NCBI GenBank assembly: GCA_019637175.1
Contig: JAHBWD010000029.1
Coordinates: 1-64,000, forward strand
From: Labilithrix sp.
GTDB taxonomy: Bacteria > Myxococcota_A > Polyangia > Polyangiales > Polyangiaceae
Reading direction: 5' to 3'
Length of the DNA stretch: 64,000 bases
Positions 2,741-24,161 of the stretch are shown here, one piece after another; position 1 is the first letter of the stretch; every line of letters starts with the position of its first letter. The notes under the pieces were generated by a model, which was given only the letters and a program-made list of their open reading frames with translations, searched no databases and was not told the DNA's origin. The translations under genes and the position numbers were made by a program.

Positions 2741-2743
2741 GGT

Positions 2744-4213: not shown

Positions 4214-4289
4214 CCTCTCGCGCTCGTACACTAGACGGGTTTGCCCTCAAAGGGTGGGCAAACCGCGCGGGAGAGGGGGCGGAGCCCGC

Positions 4290-5186
4290 TCAGGGCTGAA
4301 GGACGAAATCGACGTTGTCGCGGGAGACGAGGGCGTCGCTGGCGTCGTACGCGGCGACGGTCAGGGTCTTGTCGCCCATGTACTTGAACGTGTAGGCGAG
4401 CGCGAAGTCGTCGTCTTTGTCGGTCGACTCGCCGAACACGAACGTGCCCTGGCTGTAGACGACCTTCGCGATGTTCGACGCGTAGGCGCGCGACTTCACG
4501 GTGAAGCCGTTCTTGAGCGTGGCGTCTTGGCTCGGCGCGACCCACTTGATCTTGCCGTTGATCGGGTTCGGCAGCGGGCCGTCGTCGCGCGCCTCTTCGT
4601 CGCCGGGCACCGTGGTGGTCGCGCCGCGCGAGCACGGGCCGCCGGGATCCTTGCCGCGGAACTCGTAGTGCCACGGCTCCTTCGGGACGGTGCGCACGAA
4701 CCCGAAGCGCGAGGCGTTCCTCGAGAGCCACGACGACGTCGAGAGATCGAGCGCGAGACCGTTCTGGTGGTTCGAGTAGCCCGGGCGCGCGGCGAGGTTG
4801 CCGTTGTTGCAGCGCTTCGTCTGGTAGCAGTTGTAGAGGTAGCGCTGCTCCGCCATCGTGCGGAAGCCGCTCGTGAGCGAGAGACGAACGCCGGCGTCGT
4901 GCGCGGCGGCCTGCATGCGGAGGAATGCGTGGCCGGTCGCCTTCGAGACCGGCTTTCCGCCGATGTGAATCACCTGGATCGAGTACGGCGCGCCGCTCTT
5001 GTACGCGGTGTCCGTTCGCTCCTTGCAGCTCACCGCCGAGCGGAGCTCGTCGCTCGTCTCGCCGACCGGCTCCTCTTCGTGCTCGTCGTCGTCTTCGTCG
5101 CCCATCTCGGCGGTGCATCCCGCGAGGAGAGGGAGAGAAGAGACGCCGAGCGCGAGACAGACGAGCAGCTTTCGGAGGGCGAGCAT
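4290..5186 (-). CDS. VanY-type D,D-/L,D-carboxypeptidase lipoprotein (M15 family)
   Basis: Predicted zinc peptidase acting on peptidoglycan stem peptides in the periplasm. A lipoprotein signal ends in LLAGC at about residue 23, followed by a very acidic linker. The M15B/VanY core shows the substrate Arg motif SGFRT, the zinc motif SNHQNGLALDL (His and Asp ligands) and EPWHYEF (catalytic Glu, third zinc His), so it looks active. After residue about 205 there is an extra C-terminal beta-rich domain that I do not recognise, perhaps a binding module. The ATG at 5186 has an AAAGG site about 7 bp upstream. A 12-bp palindrome lies 26 bp before the start. Confidence 0.88.
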   Translation of the reverse strand: MLALRKLLVCLALGVSSLPLLAGCTAEMGDEDDDEHEEEPVGETSDELRSAVSCKERTDTAYKSGAPYSIQVIHIGGKPVSKATGHAFLRMQAAAHDAGVRLSLTSGFRTMAEQRYLYNCYQTKRCNNGNLAARPGYSNHQNGLALDLSTSSWLSRNASRFGFVRTVPKEPWHYEFRGKDPGGPCSRGATTTVPGDEEARDDGPLPNPINGKIKWVAPSQDATLKNGFTVKSRAYASNIAKVVYSQGTFVFGESTDKDDDFALAYTFKYMGDKTLTVAAYDASDALVSRDNVDFVLQP

Positions 5187-9584: not shown

Positions 9585-10622
9585 ATGCCCGCCCCGCCGT
9601 CTCGCAAAAGCCCGGATTCGGCGGTTTCGCCGATGTTCGAGCCTCCTTCGCGCCGCGACGTGCTGAAGCGTGTCGGCCTCGCGGGCGGCGTGCTCGCGGG
9701 CTCCGCGGTCCTCGGCCGCGCGCTCTGGGACAAAGGCGGCTTCGGCGCTGCCACCTCCACCGCGGCTCGCCAGGTGCGCGACTACCGGCTCGCCGAGCGG
9801 TCGCCCGAGCACGCCGAGCTCGCGATCGCGCGCGGCAAGGAGGGCGACCCGCCGCCTTCGGCCGATCAGCTCGTGCGTCGCGCGGTCGACGCGATGGGCG
9901 GGATGAAGCGCTTCGTCAGCCGCGGCGACGTCGTCGTGATCAAGCCCAACATCGGGTGGGATCGGATGCCGATCCACGCGGCCAACACCAACCCCGACGT
10001 CGTCGGCACGGTCGTGCAGCTCGCGTTCGAGGCCGGCGCGAAGCGCGTCGTCGTCGCCGACGGCTCGTGCAACGACGCGCACCGCTGCTTTCAGCGCTCG
10101 GGCATCTGGCGCAAGGCGCACGCCCTCGGCGCCGAGGTCGTGCTGCCGGCCGAGCATCGCTATCGCACGACGCGGATGAAGGGCGAGATCCTCGACGAGT
10201 GGCCGATCTTCACCACGCTCGTCGACGCCGACAAGGTGATCAACGTCCCGGTCGCGAAGCACCACAACCTCGCGAAGTACACGGCGGCGATGAAGAACTG
10301 GTACGGCGTGCTCGGCGGGCGCCGCAACCGGCTCCACCAGAACATCGACGTGTCGATCGCCGATCTCGCGACGTTCATGCGCCCCACGCTCGTCGTGGTC
10401 GACGCGCTGCGCGTGCTCATGCGCAACGGCCCGCAGGGCGGCAACATCGACGACACGAAGGTGATGAACACGGTCTTCGCGACCGTCGATCAGGTCGCCG
10501 CCGACGCGTTCGGCGCGACGCTCATCGGGCAGCACCGCGACAACCTCCCGTTCGTCAAGATGGGCCACGAGCGCGGGCTCGGGACGATGTACTGGGAGAA
10601 CTTGAGGGTGCGGGAAGTCTGA
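9585..10622 (+). CDS. Tat-exported DUF362 protein
   Basis: A twin-arginine signal (PPSRRDVLKRVGLAGGVLAGSAVLG) lies at about residues 21-45, so the protein is probably exported folded. The body fits DUF362: VVIKPNIGWDRMP, a region around NVPVAKHHNLAKYTAAMKN, and a late VVVDALRVLMRNGPQGG. DUF362 proteins are of uncertain function and are often fused to or encoded beside ferredoxin domains. This gene overlaps the next by one base (TGATG), and that next gene encodes a membrane polyferredoxin, so the two products probably act together in periplasmic electron transfer. The ATG at 9585 is chosen because it precedes the Tat motif at a normal distance. Confidence 0.85.
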   Translation: MPAPPSRKSPDSAVSPMFEPPSRRDVLKRVGLAGGVLAGSAVLGRALWDKGGFGAATSTAARQVRDYRLAERSPEHAELAIARGKEGDPPPSADQLVRRAVDAMGGMKRFVSRGDVVVIKPNIGWDRMPIHAANTNPDVVGTVVQLAFEAGAKRVVVADGSCNDAHRCFQRSGIWRKAHALGAEVVLPAEHRYRTTRMKGEILDEWPIFTTLVDADKVINVPVAKHHNLAKYTAAMKNWYGVLGGRRNRLHQNIDVSIADLATFMRPTLVVVDALRVLMRNGPQGGNIDDTKVMNTVFATVDQVAADAFGATLIGQHRDNLPFVKMGHERGLGTMYWENLRVREV

Positions 10623-12661
10623 TGAACGAGCCCTCGCCCAACGCGCAGAGCGCGCGGCCTCACGCGGGCGTGTCGCTCGACGTGAAGGGGATCGAGCGCG
10701 CGCACGATCACGCGCACGAGAGCGTCGAGCCGATCCCGTGGAAGACGGGCGAGGTCGGCGCGGTCGGGCCGATCGATCGCGCGGCGCCTGCGATCGCGAG
10801 CGCGAGCGCGAGCGCGAAGAAAGACGCGCGCGCGATGGCCGCCGCCGAGAAGCGAGCGACGGCGGCGATCGAGGCGGCCGTGGGGATCGGCGCGCCGGGC
10901 GCCGGCGCCGGCGCGGGCGGGAAGAAGAAGAAGGTCGATCCCAAGCTCCCGGGCTCGGGGATCCCCGCGCGCAAGAGCATCCGCACGCTCGTGTGGGTGC
11001 GGAGGGCGTCGCAGATCTTCTTCTTCTCCGTCTTCATGTACTTCCTCTTCCAGACGGGCTTCCGCGGGAGCTTCGCGGCGAAGGCCGACACGCCCGTGCG
11101 CCTGCCGTGGCCGGTCGAGGCGTTCCTCCTCGCGGATCCGTTCGTGAGCGGCATGACCGTGCTCTCGACGCACACGGTCTATCGCGGCCTGCTCTGGAGC
11201 GTGGGCCTGCTCGCGATCACGCTCGTGTTCGGGCGCGTCTTCTGCGGGTGGATCTGCCCGTTCGGAACGCTCCACCACTTCTTCGGGTGGATCCTGCCTT
11301 CGCGCAAGGGCCGCGGCGCGGCGCGCGTCGAGGCGAACAGGACGAGCGAGCGCCGGCAGAACGTCAAGTACTACCTGATGTACGCGTCGCTCCTCGCGGC
11401 GGTCGCGGGCAGCGCGATCGGCGGGCTCTTCGATCCGATCTGCGTCGCGGTGCGCGCGATCGGCCTCGGCGTCATCCCCGGCGTCCAGTACATCACGCAC
11501 CGCGGCCTCGGCGCGGTGCAAGACGTGCCGGTTCGGCCCGTCCAGTCGGCCGCCGATCACACGCAAGACGCGCTGGCGAGCGCGGTGTGGGGCTCGCACC
11601 AGTTCTACTTCCACCAGACGTGGCTCATCGTCGTCTTGCTCATCGCGATCCTCTTCATGAACCGCTTCGTGCCGCGGTTCTGGTGCCGCGTGCTCTGCCC
11701 GCTCGGCGCGTTCCTCGGCGTCTTCGCCAAGTTCGCGCTCTTCGGGATGGAGAAGGATCACGCGAAGTGCACCGACTGCAACCTTTGCCTCGTCAACTGC
11801 CAGGGCGCCGACAGCCCGCAGGGCGGCGTGAAGTGGCGGCAAGACGAGTGTCACATGTGCCTGAACTGCGAGTCTTCGTGCCCCGAAGACGTCATCAAGT
11901 TCAGGTTCCTGCCGAACCGCAAGAGCCGCCTCGGCGCGCCCGCGCTCCAGCGGCGCACCCTCCTCGCGACGACCGCGGCGGGCGCGGCGTTCATCCCCGC
12001 GGCGCGCATCGCCGACGCGCTCGACGTCAACTACCACTCCAAGGTCATCCGGCCGCCGGGCGCGGTCGAGGAGCGCGAGTTCCTCGAGCGCTGCATCCGC
12101 TGCGCCGAGTGCATGAAGGTGTGCCCGAACAACGCGCTCCATCCGGCGCTCTTCGAGGCGGGCATCGAAGGCCTGTGGACGCCGATCCTCATCGCGCGCG
12201 TCGGCTACTGCGAGCACTCGTGCGTGCTCTGCGGCCAGGTCTGCCCGACCGGCGCGATCCAGAAGATCACCGAGAAGGAGAAGCTCGGGCAGGGCGTGCC
12301 CCCCGTGAAGATCGGGACGGCGTTCTACGATCACGGCCGCTGCCTGCCGTGGAGCATGGGCACGCCGTGCATCGTGTGCGAAGAGTTCTGCCCGACGTCG
12401 CCCAAGGCCATCTGGGTCGAAGAGGGCGAGTGGCCGATGCGCGACAGCAAGCCCGGCCCCGAAGGCGAACAGCCTGCGATGAAGATGGTGAAGCTCCAGC
12501 GGCCTCACGTCGATCCGAGCCTCTGCATCGGCTGCGGCGCGTGCGAGAAGGTCTGCCCGGTGCAGGATCAGCCGGCCGTCTACATCACGAGCGTCGGCGA
12601 GAGCCGCTCGAAAACGAACGTGATCCTGCTCGAGAACACGAACTACAACCAGAAATCCTGA
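10622..12661 (+). CDS. Membrane polyferredoxin (NapH/CcoG-like 4Fe-4S protein)
   Basis: Predicted inner-membrane iron-sulfur protein of 679 aa. A low-complexity hydrophilic stretch of about 120 residues (Ala/Ser/Lys-rich) precedes the membrane part. NapH-like motifs CGWICPFGTLHHFFGW and CRVLCPLGAF each follow hydrophobic helices. Then come CTDCNLCLVNC, CHMCLNCESSCP, an internal twin-Arg-like hydrophobic segment (RRTLLATTAAGAAFIPAA), CIRCAECMKVCP, CEHSCVLCGQVCP, CIVCEEFCP and CIGCGACEKVCP, enough for about six clusters. Translation is coupled to the DUF362 gene by TGATG. The likely role is passing electrons across or along the membrane to an unknown periplasmic reductase. Confidence 0.88.
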   Translation: MNEPSPNAQSARPHAGVSLDVKGIERAHDHAHESVEPIPWKTGEVGAVGPIDRAAPAIASASASAKKDARAMAAAEKRATAAIEAAVGIGAPGAGAGAGGKKKKVDPKLPGSGIPARKSIRTLVWVRRASQIFFFSVFMYFLFQTGFRGSFAAKADTPVRLPWPVEAFLLADPFVSGMTVLSTHTVYRGLLWSVGLLAITLVFGRVFCGWICPFGTLHHFFGWILPSRKGRGAARVEANRTSERRQNVKYYLMYASLLAAVAGSAIGGLFDPICVAVRAIGLGVIPGVQYITHRGLGAVQDVPVRPVQSAADHTQDALASAVWGSHQFYFHQTWLIVVLLIAILFMNRFVPRFWCRVLCPLGAFLGVFAKFALFGMEKDHAKCTDCNLCLVNCQGADSPQGGVKWRQDECHMCLNCESSCPEDVIKFRFLPNRKSRLGAPALQRRTLLATTAAGAAFIPAARIADALDVNYHSKVIRPPGAVEEREFLERCIRCAECMKVCPNNALHPALFEAGIEGLWTPILIARVGYCEHSCVLCGQVCPTGAIQKITEKEKLGQGVPPVKIGTAFYDHGRCLPWSMGTPCIVCEEFCPTSPKAIWVEEGEWPMRDSKPGPEGEQPAMKMVKLQRPHVDPSLCIGCGACEKVCPVQDQPAVYITSVGESRSKTNVILLENTNYNQKS

Positions 12662-13634: not shown

Positions 13635-14057
13635 CTATCGGCAGCGACAGTCATCAAGACGCTGTTCGATCACGATGGACGCAAGAATTCGAACGCGCGC
13701 GGCGATCTCGTCGCGAATGCGTCGCACTTCGTCGAGAGGACGCCCCTTCGGGTCCTCGAGCGGCCAGTCCTCGCGTTTCGAGCCGGGCACGACGGGGCAC
13801 GCTTCGCCGCACCCCATCGTGACGAGCAAGCTCGCGCTTCGCGCGAGCTCATCGGTGAGCAGCGCTGGCTTCGCGTGACCGAGGTCGACGCCGACCTCCC
13901 GCATGGCCTGCACGACCTCGGGATGCACCCGCGGGCCTGGCTGGGTGCCGGCGGAGATCGCTCGAGCCCTCGACCCGTCGACGGTCGCATTGAACAGAGC
14001 GGCGGCCATCTGTGACCGACCGGCGTTGTGCACGCACGCGAAGAGTACGGTGAACAT
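13635..14057 (-). CDS. arsC: Arsenate reductase, low-molecular-weight phosphatase type
   Basis: Cytoplasmic enzyme reducing arsenate to arsenite. The phosphatase-like P-loop CVHNAGRS sits at residues 8-15 (nucleophile Cys8, Arg14). The relay cysteines are Cys83 and Cys87 (MGCGEACP), and DWPLEDP supplies the general acid region. The length of 140 aa is normal for the family. This Cys set suits the thioredoxin- or mycothiol-linked types; which reductant is used is not clear. It is the last gene of the minus-strand arsR-arsI-aqpS-arsC cluster and starts on the base after the aqpS stop, with no spacer. Confidence 0.92.
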   Translation of the reverse strand: MFTVLFACVHNAGRSQMAAALFNATVDGSRARAISAGTQPGPRVHPEVVQAMREVGVDLGHAKPALLTDELARSASLLVTMGCGEACPVVPGSKREDWPLEDPKGRPLDEVRRIRDEIAARVRILASIVIEQRLDDCRCR

Positions 14058-14732
14058 CTAGCCCTCCGCCTCCGGGACGAGCCATCGAAGGGTCGCGGTC
14101 GCCGCGCCCGCGCCGAGCAGCTGCGCCACGATGAATCCGGGGGTGTCGGCGGGACGGATGCCCGCGAACGTGTCGCTCGCCGACCGCGCGAGCGTGACGG
14201 CGGGATTCGCGAACGAGGTGGACGCGGTGAACCAGTAGGCCGCCGTGATGTACGCGCCCACCGCGAAGGGAACGGATCCGGGCCGGCGTCTCGAGCAGGC
14301 GGCGATGACGGCGAGGAGACCGAACGTCGCGACGAGCTCGCTCAAGAGCTGAGCTCTGCCGCTCCGGACGTGTCGTGACGCGAAGAAGAGCGCCCGCTCC
14401 TCGAACATGACGTGCGCGATCGCGACGCCCGCGAAAGCTCCGCCGACTTGCGCGGCGACGTAGCCGGGTACCTCGCGCCAAGCGAGACGCCCGCACGTCG
14501 CGTCTGCGAGGGTCACCGCCGGATTGAAATGAGCGCCGGAGACCGGACCCAACGTGAGGATGAGCGCCACGAGGACGGCGCCGGTCGCGAGCGTGTTCGC
14601 GAGCAGCGCGATCGCCGCGTTGCCGCCGGCGAGACGCTCGCCCATGATCCCCGATCCGACGATCGCGGTGAGCAGCAGGCAGGTTCCCAGCGCCTCGGCG
14701 ACGATCTTGCGCGCGCGATCAACCCGTCGCAT
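14058..14732 (-). CDS. aqpS: Aquaglyceroporin-type channel, arsenite conduit (AqpS-like)
   Basis: MIP-family channel of 224 aa with six helices and both pore motifs: HFNPAVT with NPA at residues 70-72, and SFANPAVT with NPA at 176-178. It lies between arsI and arsC. In Sinorhizobium meliloti AqpS sits in an ars operon and lets arsenite made by ArsC flow out passively; the same role is inferred here, since no ArsB or Acr3 pump is present in the window. The start overlaps the end of arsI by 14 bp, which suggests coupled translation. Confidence 0.87.
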   Translation of the reverse strand: MRRVDRARKIVAEALGTCLLLTAIVGSGIMGERLAGGNAAIALLANTLATGAVLVALILTLGPVSGAHFNPAVTLADATCGRLAWREVPGYVAAQVGGAFAGVAIAHVMFEERALFFASRHVRSGRAQLLSELVATFGLLAVIAACSRRRPGSVPFAVGAYITAAYWFTASTSFANPAVTLARSASDTFAGIRPADTPGFIVAQLLGAGAATATLRWLVPEAEG

Positions 14733-15183
14733 CGGGCGTCTTCGGGGCGCAGGCGCCTGGCCCGCAGCAAGAGGAGCGCTTCGAAGCGGCGGGCTGTCCG
14801 TCGCCCATGGTCGCGGCGTCGGCGAGGACGACGAACACCTCCCACGAGTTGCCGTCGGGATCTTCGACCCAGACCTTGTTCTGGACGGCGTAGCAGCAGG
14901 AGGTCGCCTCTTCGACCACGGTCCGCAGCCCCGCCGCTTCGAACCGCGCCTTGGCCTCGTCGACGTCGCCCGGGCTCGCGACCTGAATGCCGAAGTGGCT
15001 CGCGTTCAGGCCGGTGCGAGGCGCCTCGACCATCGACAGGTTGAGCGAGGGCGCGTTCAAGTCGAACTTGGCGTATCCAGGGCGGCGCTTCGTCACTCCG
15101 ACGCCGAAGGCCTTCTCGTAGAACGCGATCGAGGCGTCGATGTCGGCGACGTTGAGTGACACGTGCGGTTTGAGGATGTTCAT
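14719..15183 (-). CDS. arsI: ArsI/CadI-family metalloenzyme (vicinal-oxygen-chelate fold)
   Basis: Glyoxalase/VOC-fold protein of 154 aa. The metal ligands expected for ArsI are all present at the expected spacing: His7, His63 and Glu115. The vicinal pair Cys96-Cys97 (SCCYAVQNK) corresponds to the methylarsenite-binding pair of characterised ArsI C-As lyases, which split trivalent organoarsenicals. CadI cadmium-induced proteins share the fold, so cleavage activity is inferred. A Cys-rich tail (SSCCGPGACAP) may bind As(III) or another thiophilic metal. It is the second gene of the ars cluster, 51 bp after arsR, and that spacer has its own inverted repeat. Confidence 0.85.
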   Translation of the reverse strand: MNILKPHVSLNVADIDASIAFYEKAFGVGVTKRRPGYAKFDLNAPSLNLSMVEAPRTGLNASHFGIQVASPGDVDEAKARFEAAGLRTVVEEATSCCYAVQNKVWVEDPDGNSWEVFVVLADAATMGDGQPAASKRSSCCGPGACAPKTPDATG

Positions 15184-15203
15184 GTCGGCTCCTATTTCTA
15201 TGA

Positions 15204-15219
15204 TTCGAGTAATATCGAA
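15204..15219. promoter_or_regulatory. Candidate ArsR operator between arsR and arsI
   Basis: Inverted repeat TTCGA-N6-TCGAA in the AT-rich 51-bp spacer. A wider TATTTC...GAAATA pair (15193-15198 and 15217-15222) surrounds it. It shares ATTCGA followed by GTAA with the site upstream of arsR. The 5-6-5 layout is like ArsR/SmtB-family operators. Its position suggests a second promoter or attenuation point for arsI-aqpS-arsC. Confidence 0.45.
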
Positions 15220-15234
15220 ATAAAGCGCGCGAGG

Positions 15235-15540
15235 TCAGCAGCAGCCCTTGCCGGCCTTGCAGCAATCCTCCCAGAGGTAGTCGGTGAGCGCTCGAAGGGC
15301 CGGGAAGACCGCGCTGTAGTAGATGAACGTGCCCTCCCGCTTCGCCTCGAGCAAGCCCGTTCGCGCGAGGCGATCGATGTGGTGGCTCAGGGTCGACGCC
15401 GGGACGTCGAGCTTCGCTTGGATCTCGCCCGCAGCGGCGCCCGCGGGCCCTGCCTGTACGACGTGTCGCAGGATCGCGAGCCGCACTGGGTGCCCGAGCG
15501 CGCCGAGCTGCTCCGCGTGCGCCTCCAGCTTGCGGTTCAT
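15235..15540 (-). CDS. arsR: ArsR-family arsenic repressor with C-terminal cysteine sensor
   Basis: Winged-helix repressor of 101 aa that would release DNA on binding As(III). The HTH lies at about residues 46-63 (VPASTLSHHIDRLARTGLL) and the wing at EGTFIYYS. There is no ELCVCDL-type sensor in the DNA-reading helix. Instead there are Cys93-Cys94 and Cys100-Cys101 at the extreme C-terminus (EDCCKAGKGCC), closely matching the Cys95/96/102 sensor known from Acidithiobacillus ferrooxidans ArsR. It is first in the arsenic cluster, with palindromes on both sides fitting autoregulation. Confidence 0.9.
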   Translation of the reverse strand: MNRKLEAHAEQLGALGHPVRLAILRHVVQAGPAGAAAGEIQAKLDVPASTLSHHIDRLARTGLLEAKREGTFIYYSAVFPALRALTDYLWEDCCKAGKGCC

Positions 15541-15597: not shown

Positions 15598-16803
15598 TCA
15601 GCCGCTCGCTCGAGGTCGGATCGAGGGCGCGAACGCGACGAGCCACGCGACGCCGAGCGCGCCGCACGCCGCGGGCAGACCGAACGCGAGGCGCGTGTGA
15701 CCGCTCGCCAGCATGACGCCCACGAAGATGCTCGAGAGCATGTCGCCGACGGCGTTCGCCGACGCGAGGATGCCGAGGCCCAACGTGCGCTGCTCGCGCT
15801 CGAGCATCTCGGCGCACGCCGCCTTCTCGATCGTCTCTTCTATCGCGACGTAGATCCCCGAGAGGACGATCGCGGGCACGAGCCACGCGATCGCGTCGCT
15901 CGACCACGCGAGGGTCGCGTTGGTGACGACGCCCAGCACGTAGCCGCCGAGCAAGATGCCGAGCTTGGAGCGCCGATCGCCGAGGCGGCCCACAGGATAG
16001 GCGGCGACCGCGCTCACGAGGTTGTGCAAGACGTAGAGCAGGACGGGGATCGAGAGCGCGCCGTGCGACGCCTCGCTCCCGGGCGCGACTGCCCGCGCGG
16101 CGAGGAGAATGAGGAAGCTCCGCGAGAAGTCGCCGAGCCCGAACAAGAGCACGCCGCCGAGGAAGAGCCAGTAGCGTCGAGGGAGCGGCGCGCGCTTCGC
16201 CTTCTCGGACCTCGCTTCGCTGGCTTCTGCGGGCTGCGAGCGGTCACGCGTCATGAGCGCGATCGCGAGCACCGAGACGAGCGCGGGGACGATGCTGACG
16301 AGGATGACGACGCGGAGCGGCGCCCCCGCGGCGACGAGCGCGACGGCGACGAGCGGCCCGGCGACCGCGCCCAGCATGTCGGCGGATCGCTCGATCCCGT
16401 ACGCGCGCCCGAAGTGCGTGGGCCCGACCTCGTCGGCGAGGAGGAAGTCGCGCAGCGGCGAGCGCAGGCCGCGGCCGATCCAGGCGACGCCGCGGAGCGC
16501 GCCGAGCGCGATCGCCGAGGTCACGAGCGCCATCGCGGCCGACGCGACCGTCGTGAGTGAGTATCCGACCGTCGCCAACGGCTTCTTCTTCTCCAGGCGA
16601 TGGCCCACGATCCCGCCCGCGAGCTTCGAGAGGCTGAAGAGCAGGTCGGCCGCTCCCTCGAGCAAGCCGAGCGCCGCAGGGCCGAGCCCGACGCTCACGA
16701 GGTAGAGCGGCAGCACCGCCGTCACCATCTCGTGGCCGACGTCGGAGAAGAAGGTCGCGAGGACGATGCCGACGACCCCGCGCGTGACCCAACGCGGCTT
16801 CAC
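15598..16803 (-). CDS. MFS transporter, last gene of the envelope uptake operon
   Basis: Inner-membrane major facilitator of 401 aa with about twelve helices. Typical MFS loop motifs are seen: GLLEGAADLLFSLSKLAGGIVGHRLEKKK after helix 2 and GRLGDRRSKLGILLGGY in the second half. The start is the GTG at 16803 in a 4-bp GTGA overlap with the lipoprotein before it; the frame stays open far upstream by chance, but the homologous part begins here (VKPRWVTRGVVGIVL). It ends 57 bp before arsR. It may carry the operon's substrate across the inner membrane, or export a product; direction is not shown by sequence. Confidence 0.85.
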   Translation of the reverse strand: MKPRWVTRGVVGIVLATFFSDVGHEMVTAVLPLYLVSVGLGPAALGLLEGAADLLFSLSKLAGGIVGHRLEKKKPLATVGYSLTTVASAAMALVTSAIALGALRGVAWIGRGLRSPLRDFLLADEVGPTHFGRAYGIERSADMLGAVAGPLVAVALVAAGAPLRVVILVSIVPALVSVLAIALMTRDRSQPAEASEARSEKAKRAPLPRRYWLFLGGVLLFGLGDFSRSFLILLAARAVAPGSEASHGALSIPVLLYVLHNLVSAVAAYPVGRLGDRRSKLGILLGGYVLGVVTNATLAWSSDAIAWLVPAIVLSGIYVAIEETIEKAACAEMLEREQRTLGLGILASANAVGDMLSSIFVGVMLASGHTRLAFGLPAACGALGVAWLVAFAPSIRPRASG

Positions 16804-17705
16804 TCGGTCGTCAGCTCCGTGCTCGCGAACGCCGTGCCGCCGCGCGAGTCGCGCAGCACGACCCAGAGGTAGACGTCGCGCGCCTCGGTGGGCGCCGTCC
16901 AGACGTTCTCGGTGAAGCTCTCGGGCTCCATCTCGTCGCGGCCGGTGCGATCGCTCTCGAAGCTGCCCGCGGTGGTGAACCACGACGCGCGCAAGCTCTC
17001 GCGGCGCGTGACCACCGCCTGCGCGCGGACGTCGAACATGAGGTAGCTCTCGGCGTCGCCCTCTGACCACGAGGCGCGCAAGACGACGCGCGCGCCTCGC
17101 GGCACTCTCTTCTCGCGCGGAACGCCGTCGGCGATGACCTCGATCGGCAGGAGCGACGGATTTCGGTTCGGCGCGTAGTCGCGGCCCATGATCGTCGCGG
17201 CGTCGGCCGGGATGCTCGCGAGCTTGCACGTGATGCGCGCGAAGCCGAACGCCATCAGCGTGTCGCCGCCGGCGGCGACCGTCGCGCGGATCGGCTGGTA
17301 GAAGCCGCCCGTGACGTCGGGATCGCGCGGCCGGAGCTCGGTCGACTGGATCTCGGGCCCGAAGAGGAAGCACGCGTCGGCAGGGACGGGCGCGGTGAGG
17401 CCGCCTCGAGCGTCGCCGATGGGCGCGACGCCGCCGCGCGTGCATCGCACGCTCACCGCGCCGTTCTCGCTGAGCAGCTTCGGCGAAGCGCAGAACGCCC
17501 ACGAGGTGGGCGGGAACGCGATCGGTCCGTCGGGTGACGCGACCAGGATCGACGTCGTCACGGGCGCGCCCGGCGTGACCTCGGGCGGATCCATCCGCAC
17601 GGCGAGGACCACGGGGCGATCGACGAACGACTCGCGCTCGCCGAAGTCGGGCTTGCACGACGGGATCGCGGCGACGACGAGGAACGAAACAGGGAGGAGC
17701 CGCAT
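16800..17705 (-). CDS. Unknown lipoprotein of the uptake operon
   Basis: No known family recognised. A signal peptide ends in a lipobox (AIPSC at residues 13-17), giving a lipid-anchored protein of about 285 residues. The beginning (VVLAVRMDPPEVTPGAPVTTSILV) resembles an Ig-like or fibronectin-like strand pattern, and the last third repeats such strands (REKRVPRGARVVLRASW, WVVLRDSRGGTAFAS). Four cysteines lie in the mature part. It starts on the last base of the TonB-receptor stop (TGATG) and overlaps the MFS start by GTGA. A role as a surface or periplasmic accessory to the receptor is inferred from the coupling alone. Confidence 0.75.
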   Translation of the reverse strand: MRLLPVSFLVVAAIPSCKPDFGERESFVDRPVVLAVRMDPPEVTPGAPVTTSILVASPDGPIAFPPTSWAFCASPKLLSENGAVSVRCTRGGVAPIGDARGGLTAPVPADACFLFGPEIQSTELRPRDPDVTGGFYQPIRATVAAGGDTLMAFGFARITCKLASIPADAATIMGRDYAPNRNPSLLPIEVIADGVPREKRVPRGARVVLRASWSEGDAESYLMFDVRAQAVVTRRESLRASWFTTAGSFESDRTGRDEMEPESFTENVWTAPTEARDVYLWVVLRDSRGGTAFASTELTTE

Positions 17706-20149
17706 CAAAACTCGAACCTCGCGCCGACGACGGCGATGGTGGGCAGGCCCGTGATGACGCTCCTTCGGCGGAAGCTCGCGGAGTAGACGATCTCTTCGGC
17801 GTTCTCGCGGTTGGTCACGTTCTGGACGTCGGCGAAGACGAGCACGCGCGACGACTCGCCGAGCGGAAAGGATCGCTCGACGCGCACGTCGAGCTGCCAG
17901 AACGCGGGGATGCGGATCGAGTTCTGCGGCCCGAAGACGGGATCGTAGCGATCGGTCCGCGCGTCGTAGACGCTGCCGTCGACGGGCGTGCGCGGGTTGC
18001 CCGACGCGTAGCGGAAGCGCGCGCCGAAGCCCCAGCGTCCGATGTCCTGGCTGGCGACGATCGAGAGCACGTGCGGCTGATCGAAGTCGAACGCGCGCCA
18101 GCTCTCGTCGCCCTCGTTGCGCCGCTCGCTGCGCGTGATCGCGTACGAGATCCATCCGAAGAAGCCCTTCCACAGCTCCTGGCGGAGGAGGAACTGCACG
18201 CCGTAGCTCCGGCCTTCGCCGTTCTGGGTGAGCGCGCGCGCGAGGATCGGGTTGCTCAGGCGGCTCCGCACCACCAGATCCTTCATCGACTTCTGGAACG
18301 CGACCACGTCGGCGGAGAGCGTCTGCGTGATCTTGAGCGACTCGCCCACGGTCACGTGCGTCGCGCGAGAGAGCGCGAGATCCGGCGTTCCGAACACCGC
18401 GGAGAGATCTTCGGGCTCGGGCGCCTGATGATAGGTGCCGTAGGCGGTGGTGAGCGCGAGGCGAGGCGTGACCTCCCAGCGGGCGGAGGCGCGCGGCGCG
18501 AGCGCGGTCTCGAGGCGCGAGAAGCCGATCGACGGCGTCAAGCCGACGCGCGGCGTCTTGCGGCTGCCCTCGACGAGGTACGCGTCGAACCGCACGCCGG
18601 GGGTGAACGTGACCGGACCCAGGCGCACGTCCGCGTACGCGTGAGGGCCGACGTCGACGACGTTGGTGCGCCACGTGTCGGCGGCGTACTCGTCGCCGGG
18701 AGGTTGCCCGAAGACGGCGATGTCGCCTTCGCGCGGCGGGAGCGTGAGCGAACCCTCGCGATCGACCTTCGACGACGTGCCGAGCGTGTCGAGGCCCGTC
18801 GTGAGCGCGACGCGCGAGCCGAGGCGCGTGCGGAACGACGCGCGCGCGCCGTAGCGATGGGAGTCGACGTCGAGGCGCGCAGGCGTCGGGCCGAAGCGCT
18901 GGAGCAGCTCGCTCGTGTCGCGGCCGAAGAAGGGCGTCACGATGGTCGTGTCGCCGCCCTCGGCGACCTTGGTGTAGCGCGCGTACGTGCGCCAGAAGCC
19001 CGTGAAGGTCTTCTCCGAGCGCACGCTCGCGGGATCGGGCGAGGGCACCGTGCGCGTCAGATCGTCGGTCGCGCCGAGGAGCACGAGGTCGACCGCTTCG
19101 CGCCGGCGCAGATCGATCGTCGCCTTGATCTGACCGTCGCGATAGCGAGGGATGGGGAAGAAGTCGCCGACGTCGGGCGCGCTCGTCCACGCGAGCACGC
19201 GATCGAGCCAGCTCTGGCGCGCGGCGATCGCGACGCGCGCGCGGTCGCCGAGCTCGGCGGAGACGAGCGCGGATCCGTCGAGCGTGTCGGCGCCGACGTA
19301 GCCGTGCGTGCCGCGCGGGAGCGTGCGCGTCTCGACGCGCACGAGGCCGCCGAGGCCGCGGCCGTACTCGGCGCCGAACGCGCCGGGCACCAGATCGATC
19401 GAGGAGACGAGATCGGAGCTGATGACGGAGCGAAGCCCGCTGCCGTGATAGAGCGCGGGGACGTCGACGCCGTCGACGTAGATGCGCGTCTCGCGCGGCG
19501 CCGATCCCCAGACGACGATCTGACCCGAGGCGACCGGAGGACGAGAGACGCCCGGGAGGTTCTGGACGACCTTGAGGACGTCGCCTTGGGTGCCGGCGAC
19601 CTTGCGGGCTTGTTCCGCGCGGATGGTCGTCTGGTGGGTCTCTTGGCGGGCGCGCGGGCGGCCGCGGACTTCGACGTCGACTTCGCCGGCGGGCGCGGGA
19701 GCGGGAGGGGGAGCGGGAGCGGGAGGGGGAGCGGGCGCGGGAGCGGGAGCGGGTGCGGGAGCTTCTTGGATCGTGAAGCTGTAGCGGTAGGTGATCTTCG
19801 AAGGCGCGGGCTTGTCGTCGACCTCCGCGGGCTCGAAGACGAACTGGCGGGCGGCGGCGACGGCCGCGGCGTCGAACGCGGGATCGGTGGAGGAGGCGAC
19901 GGTGACGTTCGCCACCTCGCCGGTCGCGGAGATCTCGATCGTGAGGATGACCGAAGCCGCGACACCCTCGCGATCCTTGGGATGCTCCGCTTCGACGAAC
20001 TTCACGAGCTTCGGCATCTTCGTGACCTGGCGGCGCGCGGGCTGGCCGCCCACGTCGGTGCCGCGCTGCTGCGCGAAGGTCGACGACGTCGTGCACGTCA
20101 GCGCGAGGAGGATCGCGAGCGCGTGCGCGATGCCTCGCGTCGAGCGCAT
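17705..20149 (-). CDS. TonB-dependent outer-membrane receptor with fused TonB C-terminal domain
   Basis: Outer-membrane active transporter of 814 aa. After a signal peptide (cut near STFAQQ) comes a TonB C-terminal domain (about residues 40-130, with SVILTIEISATGEVANVTV and AARQFVFEPA), then a Pro/Ala linker, a plug domain (GDVLKVVQNLPGV, IYVDGVDVP, EYGRGLGGLVRVETR) and a beta-barrel ending in Phe (VVGARFEF). Energising domain and receptor are thus one chain, an arrangement seen in myxobacteria. The start at 20149 shares one base with the preceding stop (TGATG), and the stop does the same with the next gene. Substrate unknown; a phosphate-like or organophosphorus solute is guessed from the neighbouring porin. 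Confidence 0.9.
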   Translation of the reverse strand: MRSTRGIAHALAILLALTCTTSSTFAQQRGTDVGGQPARRQVTKMPKLVKFVEAEHPKDREGVAASVILTIEISATGEVANVTVASSTDPAFDAAAVAAARQFVFEPAEVDDKPAPSKITYRYSFTIQEAPAPAPAPAPAPPPAPAPPPAPAPAGEVDVEVRGRPRARQETHQTTIRAEQARKVAGTQGDVLKVVQNLPGVSRPPVASGQIVVWGSAPRETRIYVDGVDVPALYHGSGLRSVISSDLVSSIDLVPGAFGAEYGRGLGGLVRVETRTLPRGTHGYVGADTLDGSALVSAELGDRARVAIAARQSWLDRVLAWTSAPDVGDFFPIPRYRDGQIKATIDLRRREAVDLVLLGATDDLTRTVPSPDPASVRSEKTFTGFWRTYARYTKVAEGGDTTIVTPFFGRDTSELLQRFGPTPARLDVDSHRYGARASFRTRLGSRVALTTGLDTLGTSSKVDREGSLTLPPREGDIAVFGQPPGDEYAADTWRTNVVDVGPHAYADVRLGPVTFTPGVRFDAYLVEGSRKTPRVGLTPSIGFSRLETALAPRASARWEVTPRLALTTAYGTYHQAPEPEDLSAVFGTPDLALSRATHVTVGESLKITQTLSADVVAFQKSMKDLVVRSRLSNPILARALTQNGEGRSYGVQFLLRQELWKGFFGWISYAITRSERRNEGDESWRAFDFDQPHVLSIVASQDIGRWGFGARFRYASGNPRTPVDGSVYDARTDRYDPVFGPQNSIRIPAFWQLDVRVERSFPLGESSRVLVFADVQNVTNRENAEEIVYSASFRRRSVITGLPTIAVVGARFEF
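19691..19763. repeat. GGGAGC-type low-complexity tract in the receptor linker
   Basis: About 73 bp built almost only from GGGAGC, GGGCGC and GGGGGAGC units on the plus strand, encoding the Pro/Ala linker of the receptor on the minus strand. Closely spaced GGG runs make it a strong G-quadruplex candidate and prone to slippage; units are whole codons, so linker length could change without a frameshift. Confidence 0.85.
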
Positions 20150-21063
20150 CAACGTCCCGGCGCGCTCGCGGGGATGTCGATCTCGAGCGCGAGCACGCCC
20201 GCGCCGCGATCGTGCGGCGCGCGGGAGTCGATCTCGGTGGCGAGCCCCTCGGCCGCCTTCACGGAGACGCCGTCGACGAACACTTCGACGCGCCAATACG
20301 CGTTCACTTGGCCGCAGAGCGAAAAGGTGTCGACGCGCGCGACGTAGCGGCCGGGCGGGGGCGCCGTCGTCCAAACGACGTTCTCCGCGCGACGGCCGTC
20401 TTGCACGCAGCTCGCGTTGGAGTCGAAGTCGAGCACGCCTCCTTGGCGCACGGTTCCCGGAGGCTCGGGCGGCGATCCCGGCGGAGGCGGCTGGTACGAG
20501 GTCACGTTTCGCTTCCAGATCTCGGTGCCGTTGGGATCGACGACGTGCAGATCGAGGTCCGCTTGATTCATCCACGTGAGGGAGACGACGAGCTTGCCCG
20601 GAGGCGGCACGCGCGCGTTCACGTTCAGCGGACGCACGAGCGGAGGACCGAAGTTGCCGCCGGCGTCGATCGCGCGGGCGACGAAGCTCTTCGCGCCGGC
20701 GCGGAGCATCGGCGCGAAGGAGACGCCGGCGACGAACGTGGGAAAGCCGGGCGCCGTCACGTCGGGGAGGCCCGCGGGAACGACCCAGTAGCCGGGATCG
20801 CCGTCGAGGCCGACGGCGATCGCGGTCGCCGTGGGCTCGAGATCGCCGGAGACCTTCGTCGCCGAGCCCGCGAGGACCGTGGGCGCGAGCACGACGTTGC
20901 GCACGCCGGGCCCCGAGGTCTCCGCGGGCATCGCGCGGCGGAAGAACTGCGCGCCGTCGACGCGCAGACCGGCGTCGAGACCGGCGTCGACGACGACGTC
21001 TTCGCACGACGCGGTGAGCGCGAGGGCGACGGCGGCGCCGAGCATCGTCGAGAGGCGACGCAT
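20149..21063 (-). CDS. Lipoprotein with YfaP/DUF2135-like domain
   Basis: Signal and lipobox (LTASC) followed by about 285 residues. The C-terminal half matches the YfaP/DUF2135 pattern: LTWMNQADLDLHVVDPNGTEI, GGVLDFDSNASCVQDG, ENVVWTTAPPPGRYVARVD and a CGQVNAYWRVEV strand, a beta-sandwich of unknown function often found in secreted or surface proteins. The first half (LAPTVLAGSATKVSGDLEPTA) looks like another beta domain. It is joined by TGATG overlaps to the porin before it and the TonB receptor after it, so equal expression with both is likely. It may present substrate to, or cap, the receptor; that is inference. Confidence 0.78.
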   Translation of the reverse strand: MRRLSTMLGAAVALALTASCEDVVVDAGLDAGLRVDGAQFFRRAMPAETSGPGVRNVVLAPTVLAGSATKVSGDLEPTATAIAVGLDGDPGYWVVPAGLPDVTAPGFPTFVAGVSFAPMLRAGAKSFVARAIDAGGNFGPPLVRPLNVNARVPPPGKLVVSLTWMNQADLDLHVVDPNGTEIWKRNVTSYQPPPPGSPPEPPGTVRQGGVLDFDSNASCVQDGRRAENVVWTTAPPPGRYVARVDTFSLCGQVNAYWRVEVFVDGVSVKAAEGLATEIDSRAPHDRGAGVLALEIDIPASAPGR

Positions 21064-22481
21064 CAGAACCCGACCACCGCGCGGAGGGTGAACGAGTCGT
21101 CGGCGAGCGTCGTCGGCGCGCCGGTGACGTCGCGGCCGAGCGCGTTCTTGCGTTTGTCGTACTCGGCGACGAGGCGCGCCTTCTTCCAGCGCGCCGTCGC
21201 CATGAACGCCCACGTCGAGAGGCTCGTGTCGTTGGGGACGCGGGCGAAGGGCCTCTGATCGAGCGCGTCGGCGTCGGGATCGAAAACGTCGTAGCGGACG
21301 CCGACGATGGCCCACTTCGTGATCTCCTGCGTCACGCTCACGTACCAGCCGAGCTCGCGGAGATCGCGCGACGCGGCGACCGGATCGGCCTTGAAGATCC
21401 CGCGGCTCAAGTTCTTGGCGCGAACGAGCTCGCCGCGGACTTGCAGCTCACCGAGCACGGGCATCGTGACGTGCGCGCGGACGTCGGCGCCGAGCGCGAA
21501 GCGCTGAAAGCCCTCGGAGGGCGTCGCGGCGGAGCCTGCGAGCACCTCGAGCTCGACGGGATCGACGGCGCCGTCGCCGTTGCCGTCGCGCCACACGATC
21601 TGATCCTTCGTCGGCGGCGTGCCCTCGTGAAAGCCGCGGCCGGTGAGGCCGGAGAAGCCGGCGTCGAAGCGCACGCCCGTCGTCACCTCCGACGAGGCGC
21701 CGACGCGGAAGACGAGATCCTTGCTCTTGTCGGGATCGCGGCCGGGGAAGGTGCGCTCGCCGATGGGGTCGCCGTTGACGATCGCGAGCGCGTAGTTGAC
21801 GAACTTGTATCCGCCGAGCACGCGCAGGCCCAGATCGTACGACTGGGGGAAGAGCTCGTTGGCCATCGTCGTTCGCTCGAGGAACGGGCGCTGGTTCTCG
21901 CGCTCGGGCACGTCGTAGCCGAACGGCGTCATCAGCAGGCCGGCAGAGACCATGATGAACGGCTCGTCGAACGTCTCGCGCATCACCTGCGCGACGGCGC
22001 GGTAAGGCGCCGAGGCCGGCCACTTGATCGACGCCTCGGCGTTCCACGGTCTCACCTGCGGCCCGTTGACGGTGTTGGCGTCGAGCTCGAGCGCGCCGTG
22101 AACGAGGCCTTGATCGCTCTCGAGGCGGATACGCGCGCGCCGGATCGAAAAGCGATCTTCGTTGAGCGGCGCGCGCGTCGCGGGATCGAGCTCGTTCTGC
22201 GACGATTGCCGGAAGACGGTCCAGTCGCCGTGGACGTAGCCCGAGACCGTGAGGCTCTTCTGCGCCGTGACGCGCGCCTCGAGATCGGCGTGCGCGCGCT
22301 TCTGGGCCTCGAGCTCTTCGCGCAGGCGCGCGAGCTCGCCGTCGCGCGCGACGGGCGCAGCCTGCGAAGCGGGCGCGGCGGGCGGATCGGCGGCGCTCGC
22401 GCGGCCGGCGCCGAAGGCGATGCCGGCCGCGAGCGCCCGAGCGACGAGGAAGTGAACGCGACGTGCGCGCACGCGCGTCAC
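21063..22481 (-). CDS. OprO/OprP-type (phosphate-selective family) porin
   Basis: Outer-membrane beta-barrel of 472 aa with a Sec signal (cut near RASAADPP), a short coiled-coil (DGELARLREELEAQKRAHADLEARV), and a barrel that fits the phosphate-selective porin O/P family: LTVSGYVHGDWTVF, RFSIRRARIRLES, RPFLERTTMANEL and a terminal Phe (TLRAVVGF). The N-terminal coiled-coil is usual for this family. The family name does not prove phosphate selectivity; members also carry pyrophosphate and other anions. The GTG start lies 6 bp after the stop of the small lipoprotein. The stop overlaps the next start by one base. Confidence 0.85.
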   Translation of the reverse strand: MTRVRARRVHFLVARALAAGIAFGAGRASAADPPAAPASQAAPVARDGELARLREELEAQKRAHADLEARVTAQKSLTVSGYVHGDWTVFRQSSQNELDPATRAPLNEDRFSIRRARIRLESDQGLVHGALELDANTVNGPQVRPWNAEASIKWPASAPYRAVAQVMRETFDEPFIMVSAGLLMTPFGYDVPERENQRPFLERTTMANELFPQSYDLGLRVLGGYKFVNYALAIVNGDPIGERTFPGRDPDKSKDLVFRVGASSEVTTGVRFDAGFSGLTGRGFHEGTPPTKDQIVWRDGNGDGAVDPVELEVLAGSAATPSEGFQRFALGADVRAHVTMPVLGELQVRGELVRAKNLSRGIFKADPVAASRDLRELGWYVSVTQEITKWAIVGVRYDVFDPDADALDQRPFARVPNDTSLSTWAFMATARWKKARLVAEYDKRKNALGRDVTGAPTTLADDSFTLRAVVGF

Positions 22482-22487
22482 TCTACT

Positions 22488-22808
22488 TCACGGCACCGGC
22501 GGAAGACCACCGTCGGCGAGCTTCAGCGGGAGGACGGGGTTCTTCGTGATCTGAACGGCGTCGGTGCATGCGTTGAGGATCTCGAGGTGCGTCGTCGGGT
22601 TGAGGACGCAGTCGCCGGGTCCGCCGTCGGGCTGGGGCCCGCCGTCGTTCTGCGCGTTTGGTCCGCCGTCGACAGGGTTGAGGGGGCCCGCGTCCGGGGT
22701 GATCTGCGGCTCCTTCACCACGCCCGAGTCGCTGTCGCACGCGACGTAGCTGAGGGCCGAGGCCGCGAAGAGGCCGACGAGCAGGAAGGTCGATCGGGAG
22801 CGCTTCAT
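22488..22808 (-). CDS. Small Asp/Gly/Pro-rich lipoprotein of the uptake operon
   Basis: 106 residues: signal with lipobox YVAC, then a low-complexity linker (TPDAGPLNPVDGGPNAQNDGG) and a short C-terminal segment with two cysteines (GDCVLNPTTHLEILNACTDAVQI). No family recognised. Its end (VLPLKLADGGLPPVP) is extended and proline-rich. It begins on the final base of the binding-protein-like gene stop (TGATG) and ends 6 bp before the porin. Size and position suggest a tether or adaptor between periplasmic and outer-membrane components, but nothing in the sequence proves it. Confidence 0.75.
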   Translation of the reverse strand: MKRSRSTFLLVGLFAASALSYVACDSDSGVVKEPQITPDAGPLNPVDGGPNAQNDGGPQPDGGPGDCVLNPTTHLEILNACTDAVQITKNPVLPLKLADGGLPPVP

Positions 22809-24031
22809 CACCGCACCTCGCAGAAGTTGCGCCGGCACTTGCCGCTGCCGCAGGGAGTGTCGTCCGTGCACGGCGTGCACTTCGTGCTCCCTTGCGGGAC
22901 CTTCGCCTCGAAGTAACAGGTGCACGGCTCGGGATCGGCGTAGAGGGAGAGGACGTCGCCGTCGAAGCCGCGCTTCACCTTCATCGCGCACTCGGGAACG
23001 AGGCCGCTCGCGATGACCTGATCGAGGCCGTTGACGTCGGGATCGACGCGGTGACCGAAGACGAGATCGATGATCCGCTGCACGTTCGGATCGGTCGCCT
23101 TGCCCGTTCCGTCGACGCGCGTGATGTACGGCGTCGGCGACCACGGGACGTAGTGACCGTCGCGGACGTTCTGCTTGTCGAAGCTCGTCGACGTCTTGTC
23201 GGGGAAGTAGGCGAACTTCTGACCGAACGCCTTGAACGCGAGAAACTTCACCTGATTGCGGTTCGAGTCGTAGACGTCGACGCCCATGAGGCCGATCGTC
23301 GGCTCGGGGTTGATCGACGTCGCGACGAGGTTGAGCACCTCGGTCGACGTGTTGTTCGTCGGGATCGTGCCCTTGAGCTGGTTGGCGCGGAGGCCGATGT
23401 TGGCCGCGTTGGTGAGCGCCGTGCTCGCGGTCGCGCCGCGGCTGAAGCGGAGCGCCTGATCGATCCACGGCGTCGCCATGCCGGTGTTGCCCGCGAACCC
23501 CCAGGCGAAGTAGCCCTCTTCGGCGGTGATCGCGACCTGCGAGCTGCCGAAGGGAACGATGAACCCGTATGCCTGGACGGGCCCGTTGACGACCGCGAGA
23601 TCGGCGGGCTTCGCGGGCAGCGCGGTACAGCTCGACAGGTACGTCGCGCCGATGCCGAGGCCGATCTCGTTGCCTCCGGGATCGTCGGCTTCGCAGGTGG
23701 GGGCGGGGAGGTTCGGGTTCCACGCGGCATCCTCGGTGAGCGACGGGATGTAGCGGATCGGCCGCGCGCCCGTCAGATCGGTCACCATGTTGTTGCCGTT
23801 GTAGAGATCCGCTCCCAGCGTGCACGTCGGCAGGTTCTTGTAGACGAGGCGGATCGGCGTGGCCGAGTTGACGAGGCGGAACCCGAGGCGCTTCACGAGC
23901 CCCTCTTGGGTATCGCCGTTTTCGATGTAGACGACCGGCTGGGCGCCGAGGGTCGAGCACGGGGCCGCGGATGCTTCCTGCGTTGCGCCGAGCGTGACGA
24001 TCGTGAGCGCGACGAGAATCTTTGCTCGCAT
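22808..24031 (-). CDS. Secreted periplasmic-binding-protein-like protein, first gene of the uptake operon
   Basis: 407 aa with a Sec signal ending ASAAP. No exact family assigned. The body has features that recall phosphate-type (PstS-like) binding proteins: an early VVYIENGDTQEGLVKRL, a NNMVTDLTGARPI segment, IVPFGSSQVAITAEEGYFAW, and a late VRDGHYVPWSPTPYI resembling the 'I-R-x-G-x-Y-P' segment of those proteins. Binding-protein identity is therefore an inference of moderate strength. The last 40 residues form a Cys-rich tail (CTCYFEAK...CTPCTDDTPCGSGKC). It heads the operon; its promoter must lie in the 142-bp divergent spacer before 24174. Confidence 0.6.
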   Translation of the reverse strand: MRAKILVALTIVTLGATQEASAAPCSTLGAQPVVYIENGDTQEGLVKRLGFRLVNSATPIRLVYKNLPTCTLGADLYNGNNMVTDLTGARPIRYIPSLTEDAAWNPNLPAPTCEADDPGGNEIGLGIGATYLSSCTALPAKPADLAVVNGPVQAYGFIVPFGSSQVAITAEEGYFAWGFAGNTGMATPWIDQALRFSRGATASTALTNAANIGLRANQLKGTIPTNNTSTEVLNLVATSINPEPTIGLMGVDVYDSNRNQVKFLAFKAFGQKFAYFPDKTSTSFDKQNVRDGHYVPWSPTPYITRVDGTGKATDPNVQRIIDLVFGHRVDPDVNGLDQVIASGLVPECAMKVKRGFDGDVLSLYADPEPCTCYFEAKVPQGSTKCTPCTDDTPCGSGKCRRNFCEVR

Positions 24032-24161
24032 GGTCCGTAACGCTGTCACGCTGCGCGCGATGCGGGTGCTCACACTTTCGTGAACTGTGGCTGAGCAGAA
24101 TTGACGGCGCTGTAACAATTGCTTCAGGCGCGTCGCGGTGCCGTCGTCAATAATCGACGTC

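Follow-up and report, generated by a model that had tools for sequence, protein, structure and literature searches.

A conserved envelope operon of Myxococcota with a PstS-fold protein, an OprP-like porin and a TonB-dependent receptor: a candidate module for scavenging phosphate-class oxyanions

Introduction

High-affinity phosphate uptake through PstSCAB-PhoU with PhoBR, the phosphate and polyphosphate porins OprP and OprO, receptors with an N-terminal TonB_C domain such as MxcH (myxochelin), and SusCD-type pairs are the described systems closest to the operon reported here. In Caulobacter, the phosphate-starvation surface lipoprotein ElpS (CC0170) co-occurs with the TonB receptor CC0171, and a function in phosphate uptake has been proposed (PMC2996285). 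Our operon, A-B-C-D-E-F, lies in a 64,000-nucleotide stretch of a Labilithrix sp. genome (contig JAHBWD010000029.1, here C74; "the window" denotes this whole stretch), an assembly of 9.1 Mb in 151 contigs whose nearest relatives carry the labels Labilithrix sp. and Polyangiaceae metagenome-assembled genomes. A preliminary description, made from the sequence of the window, had proposed that seven coupled genes, the six above plus an MFS carrier gene (G), form an undescribed uptake system for one solute, possibly a phosphate-like anion. A–F is indeed a conserved, coupled envelope operon for which no account of the gene set was found in the literature searched, which covered few subscription journals.

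The operon shares with PstSCAB-PhoU and PhoBR the PstS fold of protein A, the pocket motifs of one group of A proteins (group I, see below), adjacency in two relatives (G037 and L095) and Pho-type control sites; it differs in being placed at the outer-membrane side, with a porin, a receptor and lipoproteins, and in that A of the window has neither the PstS pocket residues nor adjoining ABC genes. Protein C is predicted to be of the 16-strand type with OprP and OprO as nearest structures, and 7 of 19 homologues match the family PF07396, but it is encoded in a receptor operon and remains below the Pfam threshold in the window. Protein E has the TonB_C, Plug and barrel arrangement of MxcH and matches the MxcH model over its N-terminal third, yet it scores far below the cutoff (94 of 925 bits), is unaccompanied by siderophore genes and is conserved with a PstS-fold protein and a porin. 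The ElpS/CC0171 unit likewise combines a phosphate-linked lipoprotein with a TonB receptor, whereas it includes no porin or ExbBD and is tied to type II secretion (PMC2996285). Finally, the succession of receptor and lipoprotein (E-F) recalls SusCD-type pairs, although Pfam links F with neither SusD nor any other family.

We favor, with moderate confidence, the interpretation that A–F serves Myxococcota in scavenging phosphate-class oxyanions across the outer membrane, under joint control with the Pho regulon. If so, a large phylum of soil and aquatic bacteria would possess a nutrient system not described before, one that joins the Pho regulon to proton-driven outer-membrane uptake; the A paralogues with changed pockets would provide a natural series for ligand change in PstS-type proteins, and there would be a reason for arsenic-resistance genes settling beside the module.

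Gene Organization and Conservation

All genes are encoded on the minus strand, in the order A (22808..24031), B (22488..22808), C (21063..22481), D (20149..21063), E (17705..20149) and F (16800..17705), followed by G (15598..16803), which lies outside the conserved module. One-base TGATG overlaps connect A/B, C/D, D/E and E/F, B and C are separated by a 6-bp gap, and F and G overlap by GTGA. A codon-usage gene caller chose the same seven genes, in agreement with the coordinates and coupled junctions of the preliminary description. Scans for sigma-70 promoters and terminators gave no signal above chance.

DNA and protein comparisons revealed that the order A-B-C-D-E-F is kept across many Myxococcota relatives, and hence not a matter of chance; G does not recur with it. 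A scan of GTDB genomes, based on one peptide pattern and thus not exhaustive, recovered 122 relatives of A, the best 80 of them with neighborhoods. Nearly all are labeled Myxococcota or, in older nomenclature, "Deltaproteobacteria", and they include members of Labilithrix, Polyangium, Minicystis, Sorangium, Nannocystis, Plesiocystis and Kofleriaceae. In a sample of the phylum, A was present in 53 of 379 genomes (E 1e-10).

The operon occurs in two architectures. In the clade of the window it consists of A-B-C-D-E-F without a cassette; in most sister operons, ExbB, ExbD and TonB-like genes are inserted between D and E. Broken down by the pocket groups of A defined below, full operons carry the cassette as follows: group III (that of the window), 0 of 22; group II, 19 of 20; group I, 14 of 17; group IV, 1 of 7. 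Minicystis rosea has operons of groups I, II and III; G037 belongs to group I, Nannocystis to group II and Plesiocystis to group IV. A second module, equipped with ExbB-ExbD-TonB, is found in the window's own genome on contig C72 (L024). In their own trees, E and C fall into the groups defined by the pockets of A, indicating that the operon descends largely as a unit. At some Polyangium and Sorangium loci only B and A were found. Four loci (L092, L102, L107 and L112) have B-A alone in reversed order, without porin or receptor; in the Minicystis locus among them (L092), PiT, a DUF47 protein and another outer-membrane-type protein are encoded about 7 kb upstream.

Fold and Pocket Signatures of Protein A

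The AlphaFold model of A, built with 18 homologues (pLDDT 85, pTM 0.84), superimposes on its nearest PstS structures with Z scores of 24.3 and 24.2 over 252 and 251 residues at 2.3 Å (Foldseek, VIA-align), which bears out the earlier designation of A as binding-protein-like; the shared fold alone does not establish its ligand. The relationship is visible by structure only: A of the window has no Pfam or NCBIfam match, 1 of the 18 homologues matches PBP_like_2 (E 0.031), and sequence searches of the PDB with profiles of A and C returned nothing. The protein carries an export signal and no lipobox, and ends in a Cys-rich C-terminal tail with invariant Cys.

Across 126 distinct A sequences, three pocket loops change together. 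Group I has GS[ST]A, SDV[FY] and RxxxSGT, which is the PstS signature; it aligns collinearly with PstS in a profile alignment (E 6e-5), with RxxxSGT and DGHYPI falling on RxxxSGT and DGSYPI of PstS. Group II is characterized by GGSA, MGNS and RxxxSAA, group III by GDTQE, a replaced SD and RxxTxST, and group IV by FPATTLLES, AMDVGG and RNPGSST, while sixteen sequences outside all classes were kept as "other". A of the window, a member of group III, reads GDTQE, AT and RGATAST where PstS has GS[ST]A, SD and RxxxSGT. On the tree of A, group III requires 2 changes, group II 3 and group IV 1; group I occurs scattered, as expected of an ancestral state. With at least four pocket signatures in the family, and that of the window unlike canonical PstS, the notion of a system "for one solute" proved too simple. 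In PstS, hydrogen phosphate donates its proton to the aspartate of the second loop. The combined loss of this residue and gain of an Asp in the first loop suggests a rearranged rather than a dead pocket.

The four co-varying signatures can also be taken as a sign that the module type is the same but that the window's clade takes another oxyanion (arsenate, molybdate/tungstate, selenate or phosphonate), the altered pocket of A marking a ligand switch. We regard this as unlikely, though it deserves serious attention: phosphate binding could be preserved by the exchange of one Asp for another in the first loop, and further evidence on both sides comes from the neighborhoods considered below.

Porin, Receptor and Lipoproteins

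The model of C (pLDDT 81.6, pTM 0.73) is nearest to OprP (2o4v, Z 28.0) and then OprO (4rjw, 27.5), general porins following at 24.8 and below, and the best PF07396 match among the C homologues has an E value of 5.7e-8. In E, Pfam identifies TonB_C (residues 60-126), Plug (PF07715, 174-268) and the receptor barrel (PF00593, 386-778), Plug and barrel exceeding the cutoff; since the N-terminus matches the MxcH model, the fusion to a TonB domain is an arrangement already known from myxobacteria rather than a new one. The labels OprO/OprP-type porin for C, supported by structure and homologues, and TonB-fused receptor for E can thus be retained. B is a small lipoprotein whose lipobox Cys (Cys24) is invariant in 16 homologues, as are C67 and C81. 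D and F are lipoproteins of unnamed families, conserved in 17 and 16 loci, respectively, F always after E. Pfam assigned no family to any of 17 D homologues and no named family to F; a description of D as YfaP-like was not upheld, as no YfaP or related Pfam match was obtained for the 17 homologues, a direct comparison with YfaP not having been made.

TonB-dependent receptors typically serve solutes that are scarce or large, and a pore and an energized receptor side by side otherwise look redundant. Both considerations would be accommodated if E, with D and F, imported organic or complexed phosphorus and C and A handled only the phosphate freed from it, giving two routes in one operon. We consider this arrangement improbable, as the neighbor clusters of the module show no recurrent gene for a phosphatase, nuclease or phytase.

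Two observations on the receptor may be added. The Pro-Ala repeat linker of E (19689-19762) matches many unrelated places in the DNA of relatives with 84-93% identity, which is low complexity and not homology. A Kofleriaceae receptor (L056:10261-12531), inspected by eye only, seems to start with a carboxypeptidase-regulatory-like stretch replacing TonB_C.

Putative Control Sites and Neighboring Genes

A position matrix derived from the E. coli Pho box, written before scoring, was applied to the 160 bp before A and, as controls, to 405 intergenic regions of these loci. When the loci were split by group, a step taken after a first unsplit pass, the window's group scored above the controls (Mann-Whitney p 3e-7), with p values of 0.08 and 0.03 for groups I and II and nothing for group IV. 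The pattern GTYAH-N6-GTYAH, chosen after seeing the hits and the sites before the pho genes of G037, was found in 13 of 34 regions of the window's group versus 9 of the 405 controls; after weighting by 70% identity clusters the repeat was present in 7 of 21 (p 2e-6). The single match in the window, the direct repeat GTTACAGCGCCGTCAA (24101..24116, minus strand), is located 85 bp upstream of A, with 0.70 matches expected anywhere in the window. This Pho-box-like site is aligned in close relatives, and a like site, GTCATGGTCGCGTCAA, precedes phoB in the phoB-pst operon of the same genome on contig C68.

The neighborhoods of relatives point in the same direction. In G037 (family f8), A-B-C-D-exbB-exbD-tonB-E-F is followed by genes for a receiver-type protein, Porin_O_P, PhoB, a histidine kinase, PstB, PhoU, PstS, PstC and PstA, with module and pst-pho genes all on one strand. 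In L095, phoB-kinase-pstB-phoU-pstS-pstC-pstA precede A and DUF47-PiT follow F. PhoU, PstC and PstA exceeded the NCBIfam cutoffs in both and PstB in L095; PhoB and the kinase were best matches below the equivalog cutoffs. Within the window's group, A comes immediately after PhoB-PhoR-type genes in G011; in L056 it is preceded by a PhoB-type gene, with a divergent kinase gene, and in G020 PhoB-type and kinase genes are nearby. Since PhoB-like regulators are common, those beyond a few genes were excluded from the count. Together, the pst-pho neighbors and the Pho-box-like sites suggest a phosphate-like anion, as originally surmised.

The switch to another oxyanion finds some backing in the remaining neighborhoods. 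In Plesiocystis pacifica (L094:17896-21179), PhnD-, PhnC- and PhnE-type genes follow F with overlapping ends, and in two related loci such genes are divergent from A; the PhnD-like protein of this group IV neighborhood passes the cutoff of the putative selenate ABC model TIGR04553. Regulators that group into one cluster lie beside A in nine loci, the two that were scanned consisting of HTH_17 plus PBP_like; the best partial match of these group III regulators was the end of a molybdopterin protein. Pulling the other way, Pho-box-like sites and PhoB-type neighbors are strongest in the window's own group. In Polyangium and Minicystis (L049:9138-9989 and L047:8823-9725), an Excisionase-type HTH is fused to PBP_like beside A; such a fusion is a possible ligand-sensing regulator, whose ligand would reveal that of the operon.

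Regulators adjoining A in several clades, and an A protein with an export signal and without lipobox, would also be expected if E signaled ligand status or exported A, with no solute import at all. Such a sensing or export device appears highly improbable to us: the neighbor clusters contain no recurrent sigma/anti-sigma pair, the porin and three lipoproteins are conserved, and ExbB-ExbD-TonB in the operon fits import. The inner-membrane partners in the sister operons are ExbB-ExbD-TonB, and the neighbors are PstSCAB or PhnDCE-type ABC transporters.

Proposed Mode of Action

Gene content and order, conservation, predicted folds, neighbors and motif enrichment suggest the following scheme for regulation, transport, ligand and location of A in a phosphate-class scavenging module. 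Upon phosphate scarcity, PhoB would bind the repeat before A. Porin C, being OprP-like, may admit the free anion, which would be bound by A, whose fold is predicted by the model. Receptor E together with lipoproteins D, F and B would import bound or complexed anion, driven by the proton motive force via ExbB-ExbD-TonB; for the window operon this complex would have to act in trans, provided for example by the second module on C72. At the inner membrane, an ABC transporter such as PstCAB, whose genes are on C68, would take over; the MFS gene belongs with a locus-specific arsenic-resistance block. To our knowledge, phosphate is otherwise assumed to cross the outer membrane passively, via porins. 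We tentatively propose, as a bolder variant that we would not yet bank on, that Myxococcota take up a small inorganic oxyanion such as phosphate by a TonB-energized route, in which A would be a capture protein that either passes the anion to the energized receptor beside the OprP-like pore or receives it from there, its pocket changed for several oxyanions.

Several points weigh against phosphate-class scavenging. First, A of the window is devoid of the Asp that PstS has in its second loop, and AST replaces SGT, so that phosphate is not assured. Second, OprP passes phosphate passively, which makes a role of E for that small ion conjectural. Third, the window copy has no adjoining pst, pho or ExbBD-TonB gene. 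Fourth, the A proteins of G037 and L095 are sisters in the tree (support 92), and the linkage to pst may therefore trace back to one old event. Finally, the p values for the Pho box are optimistic, given a fitted pattern and non-independent relatives.

The MFS Gene and the Arsenic Block

G matches MFS_1, confirming a carrier of this type, but not the inner-membrane step assigned to it. The GTGA overlap of F and G would speak for a system of seven parts in which the MFS protein serves as inner-membrane carrier; we give this very little credence, as G follows F in no relative carrying the module and no match was obtained at E 1e-40 in eleven other members of the genus. Matches at this threshold in 2 of 57 other genomes (G044 and G050) are away from the module and have neither ars nor module neighbors, which makes them uninformative on the cargo of G. 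In two congeners (L009 and L014), the far-side genes (window 9633-12661, 73-90% identical) and F are kept, and MFS, arsR, arsI, aqpS and arsC are all missing between these conserved flanks. The MFS gene and the arsenic block were thus gained or lost together, and the F/G overlap is a local join; G looks like a local insertion beside arsenic-resistance genes and not like a part of the module. What persists of the preliminary interpretation is the conserved, coupled envelope operon and the suggestion of a phosphate-type anion, while the MFS step and the YfaP label found no support and the single solute is too simple a view.

The arsenic block directly downstream of G (13635..15540, minus strand) comprises four genes according to model matches: arsR (15540-15235; ArsR/SmtB model over cutoff), arsI (15183-14719; ArsI/CadI model over cutoff), an aqpS-type aquaporin gene (14732-14058; MIP) and a gene for an arsC-type phosphatase-fold protein (14057-13635; LMWPc). 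AqpS-type aquaporins occur in 19 of 189 genomes of the phylum. The module has an aqpS-type arsenic cassette next to it in the window and again in G392, a genome of a different family; as the window case was given, only G392 counts as a test, against roughly 0.02 such neighbors expected in the set by a rough estimate. As a weak argument, the adjacency agrees with the burden of arsenate that a phosphate-type uptake system would bring, and arsenic genes beside the module in these two genomes also speak for a switch to another oxyanion. Taken as support for arsenate as the ligand, the AqpS adjacency was weighed and retained only as weak evidence. In L174, a similar aqpS-arsC-arsI block is situated upstream of A (1833-4486).

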